From assembly GCA_019358895.1 (NCBI GenBank), contig JAHHIG010000003.1, positions 62,001 through 126,000 on the forward strand: a DNA stretch of 64,000 nt. Direction: 5' to 3'. The position numbers and the translations under genes were made by a program. The DNA is from Tildeniella nuda ZEHNDER 1965/U140 (GTDB lineage Bacteria > Cyanobacteriota > Cyanobacteriia > Leptolyngbyales > Leptolyngbyaceae). Of this stretch, positions 15,621 through 63,155 are shown one piece after another; position 1 is the first letter of the stretch; each line of letters starts with the position of its first letter. The notes beneath the pieces are model-generated. The model saw only the letters and a list, made by a program, of their open reading frames with translations. It was not told the origin of the DNA and did not search any database.

Positions 15621-15680
15621 CAGAACCTCATTGATAGCCGCTAGTTCTAGCTTACGTCGGCAGCAGCAAAACTGGGTTTC

Positions 15681-15754
15681 AGCTATCAGCGGTCAGCTAT
15701 CAGCGGTCAGCTATCAGCTATCAGCGGTCAGCTATCAGCTATCAGCTATCAGCC
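15681..15754. repeat. Heptamer tandem repeat (AGCTATC / AGCGGTC)
   Basis: Ten consecutive 7-bp units mixing AGCTATC and AGCGGTC lie between the ald start and the thiS stop. This is the short tandemly repeated repetitive (STRR) type known from filamentous cyanobacteria and matches repeats elsewhere in the window. Confidence 0.92.
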
Positions 15755-21878: not shown

Positions 21879-21937
21879 ATCCCCGACTTCTACAACGGGC
21901 AGGCTTGATTGCTTCGTTTTAATCAGAAGTCGGGGAT
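21879..21937. terminator. Long stem-loop, repeat-type terminator
   Basis: ATCCCCGACTTCT (21879-21891) pairs perfectly with AGAAGTCGGGGAT (21925-21937). The right arm contributes the last codons of the TIR-STAND gene (LRSPTSD). This AAGTCGGGGAT hairpin is a common dispersed cyanobacterial repeat and probably ends that transcript. Confidence 0.7.
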
Positions 21938-24804
21938 CTAAGCCCCTCGTGCTCAATTTCCACCTTCAATGCCTCACAATCTTTGACCAGAGGAATGCCT
22001 AACTCGATCGCAAGTGCCAACGCTGCATCGCAATACTCGCGCGCCCGATCGGGCTGACCTGTTTTGTGATGGAGTTCTGCAAACCTCAAGCAGGCTTCCG
22101 CTTCATTTGCTCTGTCGCCCAGCGCTTTGAAAATCTCCAGGGATGCTTGTAAGTGGGGTTGAGCGTCTGTATACTGCTCAAGCTTGAGCAACGTTGCGCC
22201 CCAATAAACCAGTGCACTACCTTCGCCCTGCCGATTGCCAATCTCGCGTCTAATAATTAAACTTTGCTGCTGGTACTCGATCGCTTGCGGATAGTTGCCC
22301 AGAGCATCATAAGCAATACCCAGACTGCCTAAGTCCTGCGCTTCCCCTAAGCGATCGCCAATTTCTCGGCTAATAACTAAAGCTTGCTGATGAGACTCGA
22401 TCGCTTGCGGGTAGTTGCCCAGGGATTGATAAGCATTGCCCAGATTGCCCAGTGCAGCGCCTTCGCCGTGACGATCGCCAATTTCGCGGGCAATGGTCAA
22501 CTGTTGCTGATGGGACTCGATCGCCTGTGGGTAGTTGCCTAGAGAATCGTAAGTAAGTCCCAGATTGCCCAGTGCAGCCATTTCTCCGTGGCGATCGCCA
22601 ATTTCGCGGGCAATGGTCAACTGTTGCTGATGGGACTCGATCGCCTGCGGGTAGTTGCCCAAAGAGCGGTAAGCATTTCCCAGAGTGCCCAGTGCAGCCA
22701 TTTCTCCGTAGCAATCGCCAATTTCTCGTGCGATTGTTGCACTTCGCTGGTGATATTCAATTGCTTGAGCATAGTTGCTCAGATTTTTAGCAGCATTGCC
22801 TAGCATTCTTAAGCAAATAAGTTCTGTGCGCGGCGCGGCTTTACCTAAAAGCCGACTGGCAAGGGCAATCATTTCCTGGTAGCAGTTCCAGGTGAGTAGT
22901 TGAACGCGAAATTCCTGCTTGTGAATGATGTTGCTAGCGGCTGTCCAGTCCTCTAGTTCGCAGAAGTGGTGGAATGCCTCCAGGGAGCCGCGTAGGGTTT
23001 CCAGATTCGGGGCATCGAGGGCAGGTTCGTAGGCGGTCTGCCAGAGGTGAGCGGCGGTGCGGTGGGCATCGTTCCAGGCGGTAGGGGCAGCTTGCATGCG
23101 ATCGCCTGCCACGCGCCGGATCAGGTTGTGTTGGCGCAGGAGGGGCACGGCATGGTTGGTGCCTACGTCCAATTCTTCCTCTGCCAGGTTGTGAGACTTC
23201 AGCACCTCCAGGGCATTCCACTGACGGTCTTCGGGCAGGTCTGCCAGCATTGCCAGCCAGAAGGTTTCGGGCACCGGACGACGATAGACGGCGCTGCGGC
23301 AGAGCAGGTTGCGGGCATCCACAGGTAAGCGCTGCAAGGATTGCTCGACTCGCTGCATGACGCGGAGTTGCAGGGCGCGCGGGGCATTGCGTCGGTGGGG
23401 TCGATCGCGCTCCAGGGCATCAAATTCTGCCTGGTAGCGCTGCCAGTATTGGAGAACATTGCCGTGAAAGGGGCGATCGAGAATGTCTTTGGCAATCACC
23501 TGGAGGACGAGGGGATGTCCGGCGTACAGTTTGCCGAGCCGTTTCAGGTAGTCGATCGCGATCGCATCTGGCTCCAGCCCATTTTTCTGAAAGATCTCTA
23601 GCTGTTCGGTCTCGCTGAGTCCGTCCAACTCCTGACGGTGCCAGCAACGGGGATAGCGATCGGCGGCAATCTCCAGCGCTTCGGGTAATGCCTGGGAGGT
23701 GAGGATGAACTGACTCTGGCAGTCGTCTCCTGCCAGCAGTTGCTGGAAGAAAGACAGCCATAGCTCGTCCTTAAAGGTCGTCCAGCCTTGTTCGTCGTCG
23801 CCTTCCAGCAGCATTTCGAGGGAGTCGATCTGCACCAGGTAGGGCGTGGTGCGCAAAATTTGCAGCAGACGCGCCAGCAACCGCTGGGGATCTTTCTGGT
23901 CGTCGGGAGTGGTGGAGTGTCCGAGTTTGGGCAGCAGGGTCGTGGCGGCGGTGATGAAGTCGTGGGGGAGGGCGCGATCGTCGAAGTTAAGGCGGGTGAA
24001 ATGGGGAGTGGGGAGTGGGGAGTGGGGAGTGGGGGATGAGGAGGGGGCAGGGGGGGCGGAGGGAGAGGGGGGAGCAGGGGAGAGGTGATCAACCACTAAG
24101 CGTTCGGCGAGGGCGGTTTTGCCGATGCCTGTGATGCCGATGATGGCGAGGATGCGGAGGGGGGTGCGGAGTTTTTGGGTGAGGGTGGCGATGAGGGGGT
24201 GGCGACCGACCCAGGTGGATGCGTCGTAGGTGGAGAGGGATGGGGGGATGGGGTGTGGGGTGTGGGGTGTGGGGTGTGGGGGAAGGGGAGCGGAGGAGGC
24301 AGGGGGTGCGGAGGGGGATTTGAGGGAGGGGATGAGGGTGCGGAGGTGTTGGGTGATGTGGAGGAATGCCTCGTCGCGGCTGTCCCAACGAGTGATGGGG
24401 GTTTGGTTGTGAGGGAGGGGTTGGAGGGTGCCGAAGGGGGCGCTTTGCCAGTCTACGGGGCGGAGGAGGATGGGGATGACGCAGGTTTTTGCGGCAGTGT
24501 GGCGGGTCATTGCCTGACCGACGATGTTCCAGTGGTCATCGGAGGCAAGGAAGTCGGGGCTGATGAGGAGCAGGATGATGTGGGCGGCGTTGAAACGATC
24601 GCTGATCTCGCTGGCACGATCGCTCCCGGCGGTAAGTTGGCGATCGCACCAGTCAGCGATGACACCTTCGCGTTTCAGCAGGCTCAGGTGCTTGCCCAAT
24701 TCGTCTCTCAAGGCTTCGTCCTGCGGTGCGTAGGAGACAAAAACTTCAATGGCTTCGGGCTGGGGATGCGTCACGGTGGATGACCAGTGAATCTCTCTGT
24801 TCAT
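21919..24804 (-). CDS. TIR domain-STAND NTPase-TPR protein
   Basis: 961 residues from the ATG at 24804 (MNREIHWSSTV). The open frame continues 50 codons upstream through repeat DNA, which I exclude. TIR domain about 18-160 (EVFVSYAPQDEALRDELGKHL, VIPILLRPVDW); NTPase with Walker A GITGIGKT (223-230) and Walker B YLVQIDSLEML; a winged-helix-like region with LLCRSAVYRR; then at least six TPR units of about 40 residues (GNYPQAIESHQQQLTIAREIG). This is the architecture of cyanobacterial NLR-like sensors. The TPRs would sense a ligand, the NTPase oligomerises, and TIR may act as NADase or signalling module. The usual TIR Glu after the DFLxSD segment appears absent. Pro/Ser/His-rich linkers (163-190, 242-268) are encoded by heptamer repeats. 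Confidence 0.9.
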   Translation of the reverse strand: MNREIHWSSTVTHPQPEAIEVFVSYAPQDEALRDELGKHLSLLKREGVIADWCDRQLTAGSDRASEISDRFNAAHIILLLISPDFLASDDHWNIVGQAMTRHTAAKTCVIPILLRPVDWQSAPFGTLQPLPHNQTPITRWDSRDEAFLHITQHLRTLIPSLKSPSAPPASSAPLPPHPTPHTPHPIPPSLSTYDASTWVGRHPLIATLTQKLRTPLRILAIIGITGIGKTALAERLVVDHLSPAPPSPSAPPAPSSSPTPHSPLPTPHFTRLNFDDRALPHDFITAATTLLPKLGHSTTPDDQKDPQRLLARLLQILRTTPYLVQIDSLEMLLEGDDEQGWTTFKDELWLSFFQQLLAGDDCQSQFILTSQALPEALEIAADRYPRCWHRQELDGLSETEQLEIFQKNGLEPDAIAIDYLKRLGKLYAGHPLVLQVIAKDILDRPFHGNVLQYWQRYQAEFDALERDRPHRRNAPRALQLRVMQRVEQSLQRLPVDARNLLCRSAVYRRPVPETFWLAMLADLPEDRQWNALEVLKSHNLAEEELDVGTNHAVPLLRQHNLIRRVAGDRMQAAPTAWNDAHRTAAHLWQTAYEPALDAPNLETLRGSLEAFHHFCELEDWTAASNIIHKQEFRVQLLTWNCYQEMIALASRLLGKAAPRTELICLRMLGNAAKNLSNYAQAIEYHQRSATIAREIGDCYGEMAALGTLGNAYRSLGNYPQAIESHQQQLTIAREIGDRHGEMAALGNLGLTYDSLGNYPQAIESHQQQLTIAREIGDRHGEGAALGNLGNAYQSLGNYPQAIESHQQALVISREIGDRLGEAQDLGSLGIAYDALGNYPQAIEYQQQSLIIRREIGNRQGEGSALVYWGATLLKLEQYTDAQPHLQASLEIFKALGDRANEAEACLRFAELHHKTGQPDRAREYCDAALALAIELGIPLVKDCEALKVEIEHEGLRSPTSD
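24003..24034. repeat. Heptamer repeat inside the TIR-STAND coding region (GGGGAGT units)
   Basis: Four exact GGGGAGT units (24003-24030) plus a degenerate one lie within the STAND gene, encoding part of the Pro/Ser/Thr-rich stretch just after Walker A. Unit length is not a multiple of three. Confidence 0.92.
24254..24281. repeat. Heptamer repeat inside the TIR-STAND coding region (TGTGGGG units)
   Basis: Four exact TGTGGGG units encode the HPTPHTPHP linker between the TIR and NTPase domains. This is the same unit, reversed, as the long array at 51297. Confidence 0.92.
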
Positions 24805-24933
24805 CACTATAATCGCGTGGGTTGGCAAGTGGTAGGAAAGGTGTTGCTGGGGAAGGAGGGTGTGGGGTGTAGGGTGTGGGGTGTGGGAGATGCGAATGAT
24901 CGATCGCTGAGGGAGAGCGATCGTGTTTTTGGC

Positions 24934-24963
24934 TGTAGAGACGTGACATGTCACGTCTCTACA
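24934..24963. repeat. Perfect 30-bp palindrome upstream of the TIR-STAND gene
   Basis: The half-site TGTAGAGACGTGACA is followed directly by its exact reverse complement. GTAGAGACGT-type palindromes are widely dispersed in cyanobacterial genomes. It lies about 130 bp upstream of the TIR-STAND start, so it could affect that promoter or simply be a repeat copy. Confidence 0.85.
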
Positions 24964-25135
24964 AATGGGTTCAATGTCACTACAGATTGATCTAGCTGGG
25001 TGGATTCTGACTTGAACAAGATGCTTCGACTTCTGAGGTGCAATGTTCTGATTTTGAATGGGAGCGATCGCCCTCTGAGGTAACCAGGTCTAAGAAAAAC
25101 TTAGAGCATTCTTGCTTAAAGTCGCAATTTTCTTA

Positions 25136-25471
25136 TCTCAAACAGGAATGTTCTCGTTTCAAATAGGAGTGTTCTCACTTCAAGTAGGAACGTTGCCGTT
25201 TGAAACAGGAATGGTCTTATCCTAAACAGGAGTGTTCTTGTTCCGAACAGAACCGTCCCCCTTTGAAACAGCAACGGTTTCACTTTAGAAGGGAGTGTTC
25301 TCGTTTCAAACAGGAATGGTCTCACTTTAAGTAAGAACGTTGCTATCTAAAACAAGAATGGTCTTATCCCAAACAGGAGTGCTTTTATTCCGAACAGAAT
25401 CGTTTCCGTTCGAGACAGGAATGATCTCACTGCAAGCAGAAATGGTCTCACTTCCAGTAGGGACGTTGCAA
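25136..25471. repeat. 21-bp tandem repeat, 16 diverged copies without indels
   Basis: Sixteen consecutive 21-bp units with consensus close to TTTCAAACAGGAATGGTCTCA. Units 2-7 correspond one-to-one with units 9-14, showing an older seven-unit (147-bp) duplication. On the plus strand each unit reads as a heptapeptide like FQTGMVS, but units 5, 8 and 10 contain stop codons, so no protein is claimed. An extra degenerate unit may precede (25115-25135). It lies between the TIR-STAND promoter region and ftrV. Confidence 0.92.
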
Positions 25472-25557
25472 CACTCCTCACCTTCCCTGAGTTCGCATAG
25501 ACGGGACTTGGTGCTTATAGCTGCGGTTTTCTCCATTAGACACCGTTCAAACAACCG

Positions 25558-25797
25558 CTAAATCTGCTCTAGCTCGTTTTGGTGAAAATGTGCCCGAAAT
25601 TTTTTATCAAACTTGATCAGATAAGGCAGATTGGCGCTGATTGGTTTACCGTTCAGCTCTCGAATCACCTGAAGCACCTCCCCTTCCTGCCCCTTCAAGT
25701 CGAAGGGGTTGTTGCGATGATCCGGGTGATGATACACGATGACAGATGCTGCCACACGGACGCGACTTCCAGCCGGAAACGTTTCACCAACTTGCAT
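25558..25797 (-). CDS. ftrV: Ferredoxin-thioredoxin reductase, variable (alpha) subunit
   Basis: 79 residues: MQVGETFPAGSRVRVAASVIVYHHPDHRNNPFDLKGQEGEV, then PISANLPYLIKFDKKFRAHFHQNELE. This matches the small SH3-like variable chain of FTR, which clamps the catalytic FtrC subunit with its 4Fe-4S cluster. The heterodimer transfers electrons from photosynthetic ferredoxin to thioredoxin in the light. ftrC is not in this window. The length is typical. The gene follows the PP2C gene on the same strand by about 90 bp and may be read with it. Confidence 0.95.
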   Translation of the reverse strand: MQVGETFPAGSRVRVAASVIVYHHPDHRNNPFDLKGQEGEVLQVIRELNGKPISANLPYLIKFDKKFRAHFHQNELEQI

Positions 25798-25889
25798 AAC
25801 TCAGACTTCCTGTATAACAGCCGTCTCCGCTGTCAGTACAATTCAATGCTTTAGACGATGCTTTATCTTTGCATAAGACTGTACCCTTC

Positions 25890-27788
25890 CTACATTCCTG
25901 GCAACACTCGCTCACGAAATTGCTGAAAGCCTGTAGGATTGAGCCGAGACCAGGTAACAAGCCCAACGCCGCCAAGTAACAGAACAGCTATTAAACTTCC
26001 TATAACCAGGAGTTTGCGCGATCGACGGTCTCTAGCAGCACCCTCTGGCTGTTGAGCAGCGGGTTTGTCTTGTAGCAGTGCTCTAGAGGCGGGCGACCAT
26101 GCAGATTCACTTCTCCGGCTGGCTGGCAGCAAGGGTTCTGGCACAACAGACGAGACAGTACAGCGGAGGAGCACGACGGATGCGTTGTCATGCCCGTTTT
26201 TCTGATTTGCCAGATCAATCCAGGTTTTAGCTGCCAGTTCCAGTGAGTGTTTGCCCTTGAGAATGGCATCTGTGTACGCTGCCCAGGATTGTTCAACCAG
26301 ACCCCGATCGCTGAGTCCATCGGAGCAAAGCAGCAGGATGCCATCTTCTTCCAAGATCAGGCGTTGGACAGTGGGTCGCAAGAATTCGGCATCGCGTGTG
26401 CCGATCGCTTGAGTGAGTGCGCCAGCATCGGGGCGCTGCAATGCCTCACGATAGAGCGATCGTCCCAGTCGCACTTCCCGCGCTGCCACATCGTCATCGA
26501 CCGTCAGTAAATGACAGTAACGGGGAGTCATCCAGTAGGCGCGGCTATCACCGACGTTGATGAGATAAAGCTCGTGCCCATTGCCATTAGAGCCGTTTAC
26601 CGTGGCTCCGTCTGCTGTAGTCAAGCGCTGGGGCACCTGTAGCGCCATCACCAGCGTTGTGCCCATGCGACGACGCTCTTCTCGTCCCTGCGTGTCATTT
26701 TGACTGGCGATCAGGTTGTTGACCACGCGCACCGATGCCTCTAGCTGCTGCATCAACAGGTCGGGAGAGACTAGCTCTGTTTGTGCCTCAACCTCTGCCA
26801 ACAGCGCCTGTGCTTGCAATTTCAGCGAGCGCACAGCCGTCTGACTTGCCACCTCGCCCCCTTCATGCCCACCAATGCCATCACACACGATCGCCAGATG
26901 GGATGCTAACGCCTCTGGTCGGGCTTTACTGGGAGGATAGCAAGCATCTTCATTGTGCGATCGTTGAGGTCCCGTGTCGGTTGCGCTCACGATTTGCACT
27001 CGCAGCGGTAGTGGCGCGGCTTGTTCTAGCAGCAATTGATTGAGCTGAGTTGCGATCGTGCCCAGTTCACTACCGTCTTCTCGCATCTGGTAGCAAATTG
27101 CTTGCAGCCGCTGTGCAATCTCTGGCTTGGCGCTGGTAACCCACTCTAGCCAGCGGTTGGCGAGATCTGCCAGTGTGGGTATCACTACGTCTGCCGCATC
27201 TGATCCCGCTAAAACATCAGCATCATCAAAGAGTTGGCAGAGCCGCACGCGCCATCCTTCGATCCGAACATTGTTCGCCGACAGCAGGCTGGAAGCAACA
27301 CCCTGTTCTAGCAGGGGTGTCCAGAGCTGAAGTAGTTGCCACAGCCAGTAGACCTGACGCAGGGCAGTTGCCTGTGCCCAGGCTTGCGCGATCGGGGGAT
27401 ACAGCTTGCCCTTTTCATCCAGCGGCATATTCTCCAACAGAAAAAAGGCAGCCTGAGCGTCGTCTGTCTGCGGGCAAAAGCCATACACTTCTGGAACGTG
27501 CAGCCGCTGCGGATAGAGATGCAAATACGGCAGCACCTCATCTGACCAATCAGTTGGCACATCGGGCGGTAGGCTGGGCTGCGTATCAAGCCAAATTTGG
27601 GGTGCGGTCACGTAGTAGCGACCTGCTACCTGCGTCCCCACAGGCGGATGTTCCGTGCGCCCAACTGCCCACAAGTAGCGGTAGACGAGCGGTGTTTCAC
27701 ACGCAACGCAGACAAGAGTCCCCAGGGTATTCAGGGGAGCGGCACAGTCTGGGTTGGGGCAACAAAGCTGCGGCTTAGAATCACTCAT
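25890..27788 (-). CDS. PP2C-type Ser/Thr phosphatase with zinc-ribbon and pseudokinase-like N-terminus
   Basis: 632 residues. Residues 8-35 hold four cysteines (CCPNPDC, CVAC), a zinc-ribbon pattern. Residues about 50-255 resemble a degenerate kinase: LLENMPLDEKGKL, then GVASSLLSANNVRIEGWRVRLCQLFDD where HRD and DFG would lie. The PP2C domain is about 265-535: DTGPQRSHNEDACYP, IVCDGIGGHEGGEVASQ, NVGDSRAYW, LLCSDGLSDRG and HDNASVVLL give all the metal-binding acidic residues. A C-terminal TM helix (LLVIGSLIAVLLLGGVGLV) anchors it with a short extracytoplasmic tail. It should dephosphorylate Ser/Thr phosphoproteins at the membrane. ftrV lies downstream. Confidence 0.92.
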   Translation of the reverse strand: MSDSKPQLCCPNPDCAAPLNTLGTLVCVACETPLVYRYLWAVGRTEHPPVGTQVAGRYYVTAPQIWLDTQPSLPPDVPTDWSDEVLPYLHLYPQRLHVPEVYGFCPQTDDAQAAFFLLENMPLDEKGKLYPPIAQAWAQATALRQVYWLWQLLQLWTPLLEQGVASSLLSANNVRIEGWRVRLCQLFDDADVLAGSDAADVVIPTLADLANRWLEWVTSAKPEIAQRLQAICYQMREDGSELGTIATQLNQLLLEQAAPLPLRVQIVSATDTGPQRSHNEDACYPPSKARPEALASHLAIVCDGIGGHEGGEVASQTAVRSLKLQAQALLAEVEAQTELVSPDLLMQQLEASVRVVNNLIASQNDTQGREERRRMGTTLVMALQVPQRLTTADGATVNGSNGNGHELYLINVGDSRAYWMTPRYCHLLTVDDDVAAREVRLGRSLYREALQRPDAGALTQAIGTRDAEFLRPTVQRLILEEDGILLLCSDGLSDRGLVEQSWAAYTDAILKGKHSLELAAKTWIDLANQKNGHDNASVVLLRCTVSSVVPEPLLPASRRSESAWSPASRALLQDKPAAQQPEGAARDRRSRKLLVIGSLIAVLLLGGVGLVTWSRLNPTGFQQFRERVLPGM

Positions 27789-49631: not shown

Positions 49632-49740
<109 letters not shown>

Positions 49741-50970: not shown

Positions 50971-51099
50971 ACGAGGGCTTGAAGGACTTCATACAGCGTA
51001 ATACATTGGCGAATGAGTGAGGCAGAAGGCAGAAGGCAACACTTTAGGTTCCACTCTCCGACCTCTAAGCGTTCCCTTCTAAGCCTTGAGCATGACACT

Positions 51100-51296
51100 C
51101 CGAGTTCAGACCTCGACACTCCGAGTTCCAAGCTCCACCTTCCGAGTTCAGACCTCGACACTCCGAGTTCCAAGCTCCACCTTCCGAGTTCCAAGCTCCA
51201 CCTTCCGAGTTCTAAGCTCGACCTTCCGAGTTCAGACCTCCACCTTCCGAGTTCAGACCTCCACCTTCCGAGTTCTAAGCTCGACACTCCGAGTTC
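51100..51296. repeat. 21-bp tandem repeat (CCGAGTTCAGACCTCGACACT type), 9.4 copies
   Basis: Nine full units and part of a tenth, of two alternating forms (CAGACCTCGACACT and CAAGCTCCACCTT endings), lie between the FemAB-like and RibD-like genes. Same period as the 25136 array but a different sequence. Frames reading STLRVPS or LEVGRW are repeat artefacts. Confidence 0.93.
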
Positions 51297-51392
51297 ACCC
51301 CACACCCCACACCCCACACCCCACACCCCACACCCCACACCCCACACCCCACACCCCACACCCCACACCCCACACCCCACACCCCACACCCC
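51297..51392. repeat. Heptamer tandem repeat (ACCCCAC), about 14 copies
   Basis: A pure array of 7-bp ACCCCAC units joined directly to the 21-bp array, ending at the stop codon region of the RibD-like gene. Complementary units occur inside the TIR-STAND gene at 24254. Confidence 0.95.
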
Positions 51393-52115
51393 TCACCCCT
51401 TTTTCACCTTGTAGTGCAAAAACACTTCATCGCTGATCGATCGCACCTCCAAAAGCTGCAAGCGGGGTGCTAGTGCTGCCATAATCCCAGCGCCATCAAC
51501 AGGCGTAGGCGCATCCACTCCACCTAAAAGCAGTGGGCAAACCGTTAGCCACAGTTCATCCACTAAGTTTGCCTCCAGCAAGGATGCTACGAGTGCGCCA
51601 CCACCCAGCACCGCAAGGTGTTTTAGCCCAGATGCCCAAAGTTGCTCAAACGCTGCTTGCCAAGCAATTTCGCCAGTGGCTGTCTCGACAACAAAAATTC
51701 GCTCAAACGCTTCTCCTTCCTGCCATTGCCGTGAACCGATCGTGGTTGTCAGCAGCCAACGCGGTACGGGCTGCTGGAAAAAGGAAAGTTGGGGATTAAT
51801 GACTGCCGATCGCGAACACACAATCTGCACAGGCTGTAGCGCTTTGTCTCGCTGCTGGCGCTGCACCAACCATTCTGGTTGCACTACCCGCAACGTTGTA
51901 CCATATGCTCTCAACGTACCTGCGCCAAGCAGCACACCGTCTGCCTTTGCGACCTGTTGCTCTAAATGGGCTTTGTCGAGGGCAGACCCAAAGCGCGCAG
52001 CCGCGCGGCTGCGATCGGCAATTTTGCCATCAGCACTCATGGCGAGGATCACCGTTGTGGTCGGGCGATCGCCCCGTTCATCTGCCTCAGCTTTGATATT
52101 TAAATCCGCTTCCAA
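51393..52115 (-). CDS. RibD C-terminal domain (pyrimidine reductase) protein
   Basis: 240 residues: TTTVILAMSADGKIADRSRAAARFGSALDKAHLEQQVAKADGVLLGAGTLRAYGTTL, then LAVLGGGALVASLLEANLVDELWLTVCPLLLGG. This matches the DHFR-like reductase domain of RibD/RibG (NADPH-dependent reduction of the ribosyl side chain in riboflavin synthesis). No deaminase domain is fused. Whether it acts in riboflavin synthesis or on another substrate is open. Its end runs up to the ACCCCAC array. Confidence 0.9.
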   Translation of the reverse strand: MEADLNIKAEADERGDRPTTTVILAMSADGKIADRSRAAARFGSALDKAHLEQQVAKADGVLLGAGTLRAYGTTLRVVQPEWLVQRQQRDKALQPVQIVCSRSAVINPQLSFFQQPVPRWLLTTTIGSRQWQEGEAFERIFVVETATGEIAWQAAFEQLWASGLKHLAVLGGGALVASLLEANLVDELWLTVCPLLLGGVDAPTPVDGAGIMAALAPRLQLLEVRSISDEVFLHYKVKKG

Positions 52116-59462: not shown

Positions 59463-59550
59463 GGCTGCGGAAGTTTCAACGACATTGCTTACCCTACCGC
59501 AACTGGCTCAATGTAGATGCAGTGTGAGGCACAGAGGGTCGCTGTGGGAA

Positions 59551-59606
59551 GGCAGAGGGCAGAAGGCAGAAGGCAGAAGGCAGAGGGCAGAAGGCAGAAG
59601 GCAGAA
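59551..59606. repeat. Heptamer tandem repeat (GGCAGAA/GGCAGAG), 8 copies
   Basis: Eight consecutive 7-bp units between the HAD gene start and the nSTAND gene stop. Same class of repeat as elsewhere in the window but a different unit. Confidence 0.93.
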
Positions 59607-59612
59607 ACATTT

Positions 59613-62600
59613 TTAGAGACTGACTTTTGTCTTGTGTATGGTGAACCCAAAGATGATGTGTTTTTGGGAAGCTTGGCTAAACGCAGGCTGCTTTTGGTGG
59701 TTAATTTCGGCAAGTGTGTAAACGTCGTCTACCTCCACTCTTCTGTGCTTCTGTGCCTCTGGTCGTGGCTTGGAGCCAAACGTCAGAACAATGACCAGTA
59801 GCGCTGAGAAAACGATTAGCAGCAGTGAGGGTACGAAAGTGTCAACGGAGCGAAGTTGTTTGAGTTTGGACTTAAGGAAGACGTTTTGCCGTCGTAGGCT
59901 GATGAGCCGCTTGACAACAGGTTCTGATTCTGGCTCCTCTGGCGAGTAGCGATCGTGCTGTTCAGAGCCAGCAACGGTTTCGCCTTCCTGCTGGCGAATG
60001 AAGCTCACCAGATAATCATGCACAAGCTGATAGCGACTGGCAGGATTTTCGGGTACGAGAAACAGCAACCCAGAACCAACAAGGACTTCTAGCACGAGAT
60101 CGAGTTTATTGATTTCAGCGGTCAAGCCCAGGTCTACCAGATCGGTTTCCAGATCATCGCGGCTTTTGAGCGGACGAGTGCCGTTTTCGTTAGTTAGCAA
60201 AAAGAGCACAATCCGCGCGGCATCTTCGTTCTCAGGACCACAGTCTTCGATCACATTTTCGAGCGATCGGGCAACCAGTTTCTCCTTTGGTCCTTTCTGA
60301 CGATACTCTGTGAGTGTGGTAATGCCTTCGGTTTGCAGTTGAGCGCCCACTGCTTGCAGTTCGATCGCCCGCACTTCGCCTCCTTCACCTGCCAAATCGG
60401 TGACTAACGCATCGACTAGCGCGTCATCCAGGTAAAACTGAGCGCGATCGGTCAGGCTTTTGATAATCGATCGGGCATCGGCTACCGAAAAATCTCCCAG
60501 CGGGTAGCGCACATCTTTACCCAGAATGTCGTTGATGCTGTCCAGGTTAATGTTGTCTCGACTGGCAAGACGCTGAAACTCTAGCAGATAGTGGAGATAG
60601 TCTTCCCGCACTGTGAGGACGACTTTGACAAAATCAAGATTCAGGCAGTCGCGCAAAAATTCATAAAACGGACGACGCTCCGGCAACGTTTCGTGAACAA
60701 AGAAAAACTCCTCAAACTGATCGAAGATGAGGACAGGCGTGAAGTTGAGGCTAGTGGCTTGGCGAAGTTGGGTGAGGAGGGGATGAGGAGTGTAGTTTGC
60801 TTCCGCTTCGCGGTGGGGTGAGGAGTGAGGGGCGGATGAGGGATGAAGGATGAAGTTCGGATCTGATGGCTGACGGCTGACGGCTGACGGCTGACGGCTA
60901 ACGGCTAACTCCTGACTGCTCGACGCTTTTGCCAGTTTTGCTTCTAATGTCGCTTGCCAATCTGTATAAAGATCCAGCAGGATGGGCAAGGCAATGCGAT
61001 CGCCAATCACCCGATCGTGCAGAGCTGGGACTAACCCCGCATTGACAATCGAACTTTTGCCCACCCCAGAAGGACCGTGGATCACAGTCAGCTTAATATC
61101 GTTACGTCCCATGCGGAGGACTAAACGATTAACATCCTGCTGGCGACCAGACGCTCTGATTTCTTGTGCCAGGGGCGCTTCTGGTGGTTGTTGACCGGGA
61201 ATGAGAGTGAGTAGAGATTGCTGGGGTTCCAGACGGAGTGCGCCAATGAACGCACGAAAGCCATATTGATGTTCGAGCGATCGCCGCATTTGCTTTGTGT
61301 GAAACGCTTCTCGATAGCGTCCCTGCTGGAAGTAAAGATCGCGCAACGTTCGGAGGATGGTGATATAGAGCTGAGGATCATCAGGCGGATAGGTTTGGTT
61401 TTGAGCAGTTTCCAGGTGAACGATCGCGGTTTCTACCTGTCCCAGCTTTGCTTCTGCTTTAGCGAGCAGCAGCAAATACCAACCGTGATGATAGCGCCAC
61501 GCCACGTCCAGACTGTATTCCAGATGGGGAGTGGATGGATCAGTTGTCTGTTCTAGCTTCGTTGTGGATGACGTTAAAATTTGGAGCGCCAGTTCCACTT
61601 GCTGCTTTGCCTCTACCCAGGCAGAACGGGCTAACGCAACCTCTGCCAGAAAGCCGTGATCACGAGCCTGTCGGACTGGATCGGCATAGAGCTTATGCAG
61701 TACTAGCGCGTGTTTGGTCAACGTCTCCAGCTCATGCCACTGCTGGAGTTTCTGCAATGCTTCTGCCTGCGGAATGATGAATCGTGCAACGAGATCCTGA
61801 CGGTTTGCCTGCTCAAACACTTGCAGCCCACGTCGAAAGTAGTTTCGTGCTTGTTGACAGGCGTAAGCATAGGCTGTGCGCTGCTGCATTGCCTGCGATC
61901 GCCACCACAGCCCCAAATGAACCAGTACACACGCCGCCCGTTCACTGGCAGACGGCAACAGCACAAACGACTCTGATAGCTTTTGCGATCGCTGTCGCTG
62001 ACTTTCTTCGCGCCAAAACGCCAGACTGTGTTCGTAGCAAGTTCGTGCGGTCTCCAATTCACCATGTGCGTGAGCATCCTGCCCTAGCAAGAAATCGAGG
62101 CTTGCCTGTAGCGCTGGATGGAGGGTTTGACCACTACTTAGAATGCGATCAAACGCAAATTCCAACTCTGTGCGTCGGAGTGAATTGGTACCCCAGAGGC
62201 TGTTATTGCTTTGCTGAAGCAATGCCCAGTTCGGTAGAAACTGCTCATCGCCTGCATCCAGAATCGATGTGAACAGGCGATCGGTGTGCTGATGCAATGC
62301 TTTAATCAGGTCGGCAGTCCCCAGTTCAAAGGAAATAACAGTATTGCCTGCCCAACTCTTTAAATCCGGTGCCAGCCGATCGAGCTTCGCCAGAATGCGA
62401 TCGTTCATCCACAGCACCAGCGGAAACGGAAATTTTTTGCCCAGTTCTTCGCGTACCAGATTGGTCGCTAACAGTACCTGATCGATTGCCGTCACCGACT
62501 CTAACCCGTAGATCATGAGGGCGTTGGGAGGCTGACACTGTGATGAAGAATTTTGAGTTGGAGCAGTTTTTAGTTGTTGGTTGTTCGCTGTTAGCGGGTT

Positions 62601-62918: not shown

Positions 62919-62976
62919 AACTGGTACAGCCCTTTGGATACCCTATATGTTCCACGTTACACGCTGGAGTGAGAAT

Positions 62977-63046
62977 GGGGAGTTGGGAGTCGGGAATGGG
63001 GAGTTGGGAGTCGGGAATGGGGAGTCGGGAGTCGGGAGTTGGGAAT
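62977..63046. repeat. Heptamer tandem repeat (GGGGAGT/TGGGAGT/CGGGAAT), 10 copies
   Basis: Ten 7-bp units in the 240-bp gap between the partner ATPase gene and the nSTAND gene. Further CACTCCT heptamers near 63160 run into the partner's last codons. Confidence 0.92.
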
Positions 63047-63155
63047 GGGAGATAGATTCCAGCTTGCAGATAATGCAGTAGACTGCCCGTGCCAAGCTGA
63101 TAGTTCCTCATCTTCTCATTCCACCACTCCTCCGCCTCTGCTTCCCCTTCACCCC

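Follow-up and report, generated by a model that had tools for sequence, protein, structure and literature searches.

A near-palindromic 21-bp tandem repeat that keeps its register is over-represented on the 5′ side of NLR/STAND-type genes in the genome of Tildeniella nuda

A tandem array in the cyanobacterium Tildeniella nuda ZEHNDER 1965/U140 consists of near-palindromic 21-bp units, and it is one of a large set of arrays that nearly always keep a 21-bp register, are conserved column by column, change more slowly than other DNA at one orthologous locus and, in this genome, lie beside NLR/STAND-type genes more often than expected. The array was found in a stretch of 64,000 nucleotides (contig JAHHIG010000003.1 of assembly GCA_019358895.1, positions 62,001 to 126,000; hereafter the window). 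We tentatively propose that such an array could be a helically phased lattice of candidate dyad sites for an oligomerising DNA-binding protein, probably one that regulates the neighbouring gene. Throughout, G000 denotes the genome of the window, L-numbers denote loci, f1 is the window's family, and f24 and f32 are other families. The coordinates of the principal features are given in Table 1.

Table 1. Position, strand and supporting evidence of the array, its internal blocks and the adjoining features (positions within the window)
Feature	Position	Strand	Evidence
21-bp palindromic array, full extent	25103..25467	none	Cyclic-profile Viterbi, score 309.6, 17.4 units, 0 indels
Sixteen 21-bp units of the initial annotation	25136..25471	none	Direct reading of units
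Units 2-7, first copy of duplicated block	25157..25282	none	15-18/21 identity to units 9-14; TRF period 147 over 25145-25431
Units 9-14, second copy of duplicated block	25304..25429	none	Pairwise identities and TRF
TIR - weak AAA_16 - TPR protein (NLR/STAND-like)	21919..24954	-	Pfam TIR_2 3.1e-10, AAA_16 7.6e-5 (below cut-off), TPR_12 9.3e-43
79-aa gene	25558..25797	-	ORF; 80-90% identical in 6/6 other genus genomes
PP2C-type phosphatase	25890..27788	-	PP2C_2 7.4e-8
Synteny break at 3′ end of ftrV-like gene	25548..25564	none	Homology with six other genus genomes stops

The initial annotation of the window had described sixteen consecutive 21-mers, and direct reading of the units bore this out; a gap-allowing cyclic 21-column profile widened the array to the full extent listed in Table 1. 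Identity at a lag of 21 bp is 0.58-0.597, versus a mean of 0.253 and a maximum of 0.352 among 2000 shuffles. Neither a 7-bp nor a 14-bp sub-period is present in the array (identity 0.21 at lag 7 and 0.22 at lag 14), and for lack of a 7-bp signal we rejected an origin of the 21-bp unit from heptamers. The seven-unit superstructure, which had been read as the duplication of a 147-bp block, likewise holds up, as unit pairs 2/9, 3/10, 4/11, 5/12, 6/13 and 7/14 share 18, 17, 18, 17, 17 and 15 of 21 positions, respectively, and TRF reports a period of 147 bp (2.0 copies, 82% matches, 0% indels). The kinship claimed among units 2, 9 and 15 (2/15, 14/21; 9/15, 17/21) and among units 3, 10 and 16 (3/16, 17/21; 10/16, 16/21) is evident as well. 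The assertion that the array contains no indels stands for the gapped cyclic profile, which needs no gap, but not for the alignment that TRF makes at period 21 (15.7 copies, 61% matches, 3% indels). Elsewhere in the window, at 51094-51399, TRF detects a second 21-bp array (TCCGAGTTCAAAGCTCCACCT, ~9.5 copies, 63-bp superstructure) that is unlike the palindromic family in sequence and runs directly into ~15 copies of the heptamer CACCCCA. The window further holds heptamer-based arrays at 15679-15753, 24002-24085, 49632-49740, 59548-59606, 60863-60925 and 62966-63051 (TRF), several of which have 14- or 21-bp superperiods and resemble STRR-type repeats.

A DNA search of G000 returned 11 matches, and a three-unit profile made from sequence only (R1) returned at least 151, with 150 of 1265 candidates scored; the R1 matches group into 17 arrays and one 3-unit fragment. 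A one-unit pattern with at most 3 mismatches matched G000 62 times, versus once for the reversed control, and because only 2 of the 62 matches fall outside known arrays the G000 catalogue is probably near complete. No array was present in a spread-out 400 kb sample of G000. The R1 profile has matches in 13 genomes out of 39 in the relatives set, and among 388 genomes sampled from the class 41 have profile matches, in 23 of 160 genera; in both cases the own genome is counted and some E-values are weak. A strict pattern scan of named genomes matched Myxacorys californica WJT36-NPBG1 and Nostoc sp. TH1S01. Since Myxacorys belongs to Leptolyngbyaceae and the flanks of L026 are identical to those of G008, f1 is the family of Myxacorys; f24 and f32 are probably Nostoc-type, judging from the gene similarity of L027 to L042 and L058. 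For comparison we used 41 further arrays in 40 loci, which with the 17 arrays of G000 and that of Nostoc L027 make 59; L026, whose record is identical to L074, and the 3-unit fragment (L035:2812-2874), which carries a 1-bp insertion, were left out. The arrays are 100-540 bp long, with about 5-25 units arranged head-to-tail, and those of G000 occupy long intergenic regions of 446-1082 bp. In the 25.6-unit array at L034:3757-4293, beside a NACHT gene, a three-unit (63-bp) superunit is repeated several times. Neither the window array nor the L074 array matched any plasmid record, the L074 array gave one 33-bp Listeria phage match that we take as chance, and viral contigs contained no exact match to one strict pattern; on these results we rejected spread by phages or plasmids. 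A literature search of titles and abstract openings, with subscription papers mostly outside its scope, found no description of the 21-bp repeat.

A point that goes beyond the original observation is that the unit is near-palindromic. In the window array, columns j and 6-j (mod 21) are complementary at 0.49, versus 0.15-0.35 at the 20 other phases. The unit consists of TTTSAAA plus CAGGAACGTTCCTG, which constitute two dyads 10.5 bp apart, and the consensus over many loci, TTTSAAACAGGAACGTTCCTG, is identical on both strands. The profile is common to G000 and families f24 and f32 (r 0.94 direct, 0.94 to the reverse complement and at most 0.35 at other phases), and units that score higher on the opposite strand do so at spacings of 28 and 35 bp, that is, in a register common to both orientations. 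The initial annotation had offered a fixed helical phasing of the DNA as one source of constraint, and this idea fits: each 21-bp unit has two dyads, and summing the twist over the window consensus gives 720 degrees per unit (718-722 degrees for three consensus variants), both twist and curvature having been computed from wedge values. Intrinsic curvature averages 39 degrees per 105 bp over 55 arrays, versus 29 for shuffles and flanks; as a general feature it was rejected because the window array itself has 28 versus 29 degrees.

Conservation is distributed unevenly over the unit. Across 672 units from the 59 arrays, a set in which gapped arrays were cut at fixed 21-bp steps without re-phasing, information per column ranges from 0.05 to 1.60 bits and peaks at columns 1, 5, 11 and 16, which hold T, A, A and T at 0.89-0.94, or about one near-invariant A-T pair per half turn. 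Columns 0, 6, 7 and 20 hold a purine/pyrimidine class rather than a base (94-96% in G000 and the genus groups, 84-99% in two others), and the shared column pattern is partly circular because every array was found using the sequence or profile of the palindromic family. The other source of constraint put forward in the initial annotation was a heptapeptide-repeat protein (FQTGMVS-like) now broken by three stop codons. The three stops in that frame are there, 21 is divisible by 3, one of the minus-strand frames of the window array runs for 111 codons with only one stop, and some arrays do have one stop-free frame, but no frame is open in all arrays. In 20 arrays (the 17 of G000 plus the 3-unit fragment, L026 and L027) the six frames contain 49, 59, 86, 42, 99 and 115 stops, about the numbers obtained by column shuffling (means 62, 72, 85, 49, 82 and 109; s.d. 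7-9), and the register is conserved modulo 21, not merely modulo 3. We thus find the coding idea unsupported, and a coding relic or heptapeptide-repeat gene scarcely credible.

The length constraint suspected at the outset is supported by the register of the arrays and by one orthologous pair. Under a strict gap cost, 56 of the 59 arrays keep their net register in exact multiples of 21, L042, L054 and L077 being shifted by 1 bp; with a permissive cost, some net shift appears in 23 of 59, chiefly in end units where the alignment enters the flanks. At the amidase locus shared by L036 (G000) and L080 (G003), 392 bp align with 77 substitutions, of which 62 (81%) are transitions, and 0 gaps, versus 189 substitutions (102 transitions) and 8 indels in 518 bp from three stretches of ordinary intergenic DNA of the same genome pair, and 812 substitutions in 3157 for its coding DNA. 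The array therefore changes less than either, with a lower substitution rate (Fisher p 3e-8) and a higher transition share (p 5e-5) than intergenic DNA and somewhat fewer changes than coding DNA (p 0.009). The chance of seeing 0 indels is 0.002 by length, 0.04 by substitutions and 0.008 with the rate pooled over six genome pairs, at what is the sole orthologous locus with a long indel-free alignment, picked because it aligned end to end. The L036 array (L036:3796-4187) lies between convergent genes, and by eye its halves are oppositely oriented, forming a giant inverted repeat.

Length change in other genomes, which the initial annotation had named as a sign against constraint, does occur, but in whole units. 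In particular, one of two near-identical loci, L046 and L049, is longer than the other by 21 bp, or one unit, and a shared pantothenate-kinase locus holds 25.6 units in L034 versus 13.0 in L066. A shared methyltransferase locus has 13.9 (L029), 14.7 (L062) and 12.8 (L069) units, and at both of these shared loci the units lack a confident one-to-one matching. Such variation in unit number, the one-unit difference between L046 and L049, the 147-bp block duplication in the window, the 63-bp superunit in L034 and the long intergenic regions that the G000 arrays occupy would all suit a neutral or selfish minisatellite, spread and partly homogenised by slippage or recombination in the manner of STRR/LTRR and gathering in long plastic intergenic regions; the register would then be kept because units are copied whole. 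We regard this as a possible, if somewhat doubtful, account. The units of the window array are just ~60% alike and are still in register, so that homogenisation must be slow, and the account sits uneasily with the column-specific conservation, with a palindromic profile common to several families and with an L036/L080 array that has 0 indels and a slower rate of change than ordinary intergenic DNA.

A further alternative is that the array acts as RNA, in which case it would be transcribed and its palindromic units would pair as long hairpins that serve as a terminator, an mRNA stabiliser or a processing substrate. Relative to dinucleotide shuffles, folding of the window array is better on both strands (z -2.7 and -6.7), and the transition excess at L036/L080 is of the kind that G-U pairs would permit; against column shuffles, however, the window array gives z +1.7 and -0.2, and values close to 0 are found for most of the 18 arrays. 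Better folding than column shuffles was seen for L036, between its convergent genes, on both strands (z -4.8 and -5.4), for L028 on one strand (z -3.7) and weakly for L026 (z -2.4 and -2.7) and L027 (z -2.2 and -1.5), and better folding than unit-order shuffles for L034 minus (z -3.9) and for L031 minus, L028 minus and L040 plus (z -2.1 to -2.4). Slight covariation was seen in two of ten dyad pairs, 2/4 (z 4.9) and 11/16 (z 3.5), but it amounts to only 1 to 5 percentage points, pair 12/15 is opposite in sign (z -2.9) and the remaining dyad pairs are within z 2. No Rfam family was matched at its curated score; for 24000-26500 of the window, the one match up to E 1 scored 14.8 bits versus a gathering score of 39 and lay outside the array. 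Because L036 and a few others fold better, we retain the RNA reading as a minor and unlikely rival to a site for protein binding.

In G000 there are 9 NB-ARC, 14 NACHT and 14 TIR matches, the union of which is 32 ORFs, and arrays are over-represented on the 5′ side of these NLR/STAND-type genes. Specifically, 6 of the 17 arrays adjoin one of the 32 ORFs, and in all six cases the array is on the 5′ side of the gene: the window array (TIR-TPR), L028 (TIR-NB-ARC-TPR, with the array also 3′ of a TIR-WD40 gene), L034 (NACHT), L037 (TIR), L039 (TIR, then NB-ARC-TPR) and L040 (NACHT-NCH2). Under the harshest null, in which two long intergenic regions flank every NLR-type ORF, the association has a p value of 0.005; under a likelier null the value is ~3e-5, and 20-30 such regions of an estimated 638 give 9e-6 to 9e-5. 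On the minisatellite account, the long plastic intergenic regions in which arrays gather would be where NLR-type genes live too; at array-less NLR-type loci, a length of 400 bp or more was found for 11 of the 37 flanks examined. No array was nearby for 21 of the 29 NLR-type ORFs examined out of the 32 (twenty further loci and a weak NB-ARC match inside the window). Eleven of the 17 arrays have no adjoining NLR-type gene, and three G000 arrays lie between convergent genes. A seventh array, L032, precedes an ORF without known identity and then a TPR protein, the L031 array is 5′ of a TPR protein, and other neighbours include methyltransferase, DUF2887/ABC, serpin/JAB, binding protein, amidase, Uma2, SnoaL and hydrolase/SDR genes. 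That most G000 arrays have such ordinary neighbours again speaks for a minisatellite. The gene association suggests that the arrays may control immune-type genes; because most arrays are elsewhere, a general role, for example in nucleoid architecture or insulation, or a minisatellite in which only changes of whole units are tolerated is also conceivable.

For the other genomes, we ran Pfam on 63 of the 82 neighbours of the 41 arrays, the gene background having been measured in G000 only. TIR, NB-ARC, CHAT or caspase genes adjoin 9 of the 41 arrays (L045, L050, L051, L054, L058, L062, L065, L067 and L069, with L062 and L069 being one orthologous locus), and at L064 and L074 such a gene follows after one small ORF. 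Among these eleven loci the array is 5′ in nine and 3′ in L054 and L058, where it follows an NB-ARC or CHAT gene; in Nostoc L027 it is 3′ of an NB-ARC-TPR gene. The arrays of L042 and L078 are 3′ of TPR genes, and that of L068 is 5′ of a weak AAA_16 gene. The L051 array (f24), which is also 3′ of a second TIR gene, lies 130 bp upstream of a gene for a 42% identical relative of the window TIR-TPR protein; a relative of the same protein in G000 (L086) has no array. At L062, L067 and L069 the array is on the 5′ side of caspase-like (Peptidase_C14) genes, one of which is fused to GUN4.

The window array itself occupies the 5′ side of the TIR-TPR gene, whose start is more likely the ATG at 24804, and is 3′ of the 79-aa gene, which we take to be that for the ferredoxin-thioredoxin reductase variable chain (ftrV). 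Inside the TIR-TPR gene, at 22209-22778, 120-bp repeats that are ~80% alike represent duplicated TPR units (TRF). The PP2C and ftrV-like genes are kept in 6 of 6 other genus genomes, and since homology ends just at the 3′ end of the ftrV-like gene, the array and the TIR gene are both on the lineage-specific side of a synteny break. The G001 contig stops right after the ftrV-like gene; in the five relatives that can be checked, no array was found past this gene in the 2-11 kb examined, and this absence (5/5) speaks for a minisatellite. The sequence that follows ftrV in the relatives is found in this genome at G000:C9:604924 (L118), where no array was present in the 3.9 kb examined, on which ground we rejected an array-mediated rearrangement at ftrV. 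The joint placement of array and TIR gene beyond the break is also compatible with a mobile palindromic element (REP/MITE-like) with tandem units, as are the dispersed, intergenic occurrence of the arrays in many copies per genome and the short stretches shared directly beside arrays of different genomes (102 bp in L047/L058, 62 bp in L059/L060 and 61 bp in L027/L047). Such an element is nevertheless quite improbable in our view, as most long flank similarities map by position to orthologous or NLR/TPR genes, several arrays are at the same locus between species and no array lies across the break in the 3.9 kb examined.

Another recurring neighbour is A2, a ~170-aa cyanobacterial family without known domain whose 3′ end faces the array at several loci. 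Relatives of A2 occur in 66 of 291 genomes, many in multiple copies (up to 11 matches per genome). Arrays are present at 10 of 30 examined A2 loci, a ranking that favours array-linked loci because the A2 profile was built from array-linked rows; all ten lie within ~300 bp 3′ of A2, they come from families f1, f24 and f32, and three of the ten A2 copies carry stops. The order A2, array, NLR/STAND/TPR-type gene, either directly or after one ORF, is found at 7 of 9 testable loci in the three families (L139, L140, L141, L142, L143, L144 and L148). The exceptions are L154, with a Na/H exchanger beyond the array, and L145, with no ORF of 100 aa within ~1.4 kb; at L146, which is outside the nine, a contig end cuts the far side. 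We rejected A2 as a binder of the array, as five copies had no Pfam match, NCBIfam matches were far below the cut-off and the one PDB match had an E-value of 0.48.

Taken together, the register, the palindromy and the column-wise conservation with little covariation point to DNA that a dimeric or oligomeric protein reads from one side. In the protein-binding reading that we favour, each 21-bp unit offers two dyads, TTTSAAA and CAGGAACGTTCCTG, separated by one helical turn, so that all dyads lie on the same helix face along 100-540 bp. An oligomerising DNA-binding protein of filamentous cyanobacteria would presumably coat the array as a nucleoprotein filament, and this putative filament might set, and most likely restrain, transcription of the neighbouring gene, which is an immune gene of the TIR/NB-ARC/NACHT type oftener than chance predicts. 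Arrays would grow and shrink in whole units by slippage or recombination, and changes that break the register would be removed.

Conflict systems, including STAND NTPases, are reported to be concentrated in multicellular bacteria, of which cyanobacteria are one group (PMC7159879). A bolder and rather unlikely extension of the protein-binding reading is that the arrays are a chromatin-like control element of NLR-type immunity in multicellular cyanobacteria. The protein lattice would silence suicidal TIR/NB-ARC/NACHT/caspase operons and be released once the protein is stripped off or titrated during infection; array, neighbouring gene and immune receptor would thereby make up a single heritable module. 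To our knowledge, the means by which bacteria silence potentially lethal NLR-like genes are poorly understood, and a cis-element that recurs beside such genes would give a direct handle for seeking a candidate binder. The arrays would, in addition, exemplify DNA in which constraint acts on pitch and on the purine/pyrimidine pattern more than on the precise bases.

Several known repeat systems invite comparison. STRR, which are heptamer tandem repeats, and LTRR, which have 37-bp units, occur in filamentous cyanobacteria. The arrays described here are likewise tandem, intergenic and from filamentous cyanobacteria, and the window holds several heptamer arrays besides; however, the 21-bp unit is palindromic, lacks a 7-bp sub-period, is strongly diverged and is locked in register. 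The window array was set apart from STRR by its lag identities (0.21 and 0.22 at lags 7 and 14, versus 0.58-0.597 at lag 21), from LTRR by a unit of 21 rather than 37 bp, and from CRISPR, whose near-identical repeats alternate with unique spacers, by units that abut without spacers and differ in sequence. Iteron and centromere arrays are bound by ribbon-helix-helix proteins such as ParR or omega2. Like the present arrays, they have repeated sites in helical phase, which would allow cooperative coverage by a protein, whereas the arrays here are chromosomal, exist in many copies and have no plasmid-record match. REP and GTAG-tagged palindromes are short palindromic intergenic repeats that occur in cyanobacteria as well, the GTAG/CGTC REP being a 20-40 bp palindrome one end of which carries a fixed tetranucleotide (PMC3733652). 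The present arrays too are short palindromic intergenic repeats, but they run head-to-tail at a fixed 21-bp pitch, and folding is no better than the column profile in most arrays tested; we rejected membership in the GTAG/CGTC class, as the consensus has no fixed end tag and GTAG appears in some units only. HIP1 (GCGATCGC) is a single octamer spread genome-wide (PMC4390886). Many of the 21-bp units contain CGATCG-like halves that recall it, but whereas HIP1 is a lone octamer, the repeat described here forms 21-bp tandem arrays.
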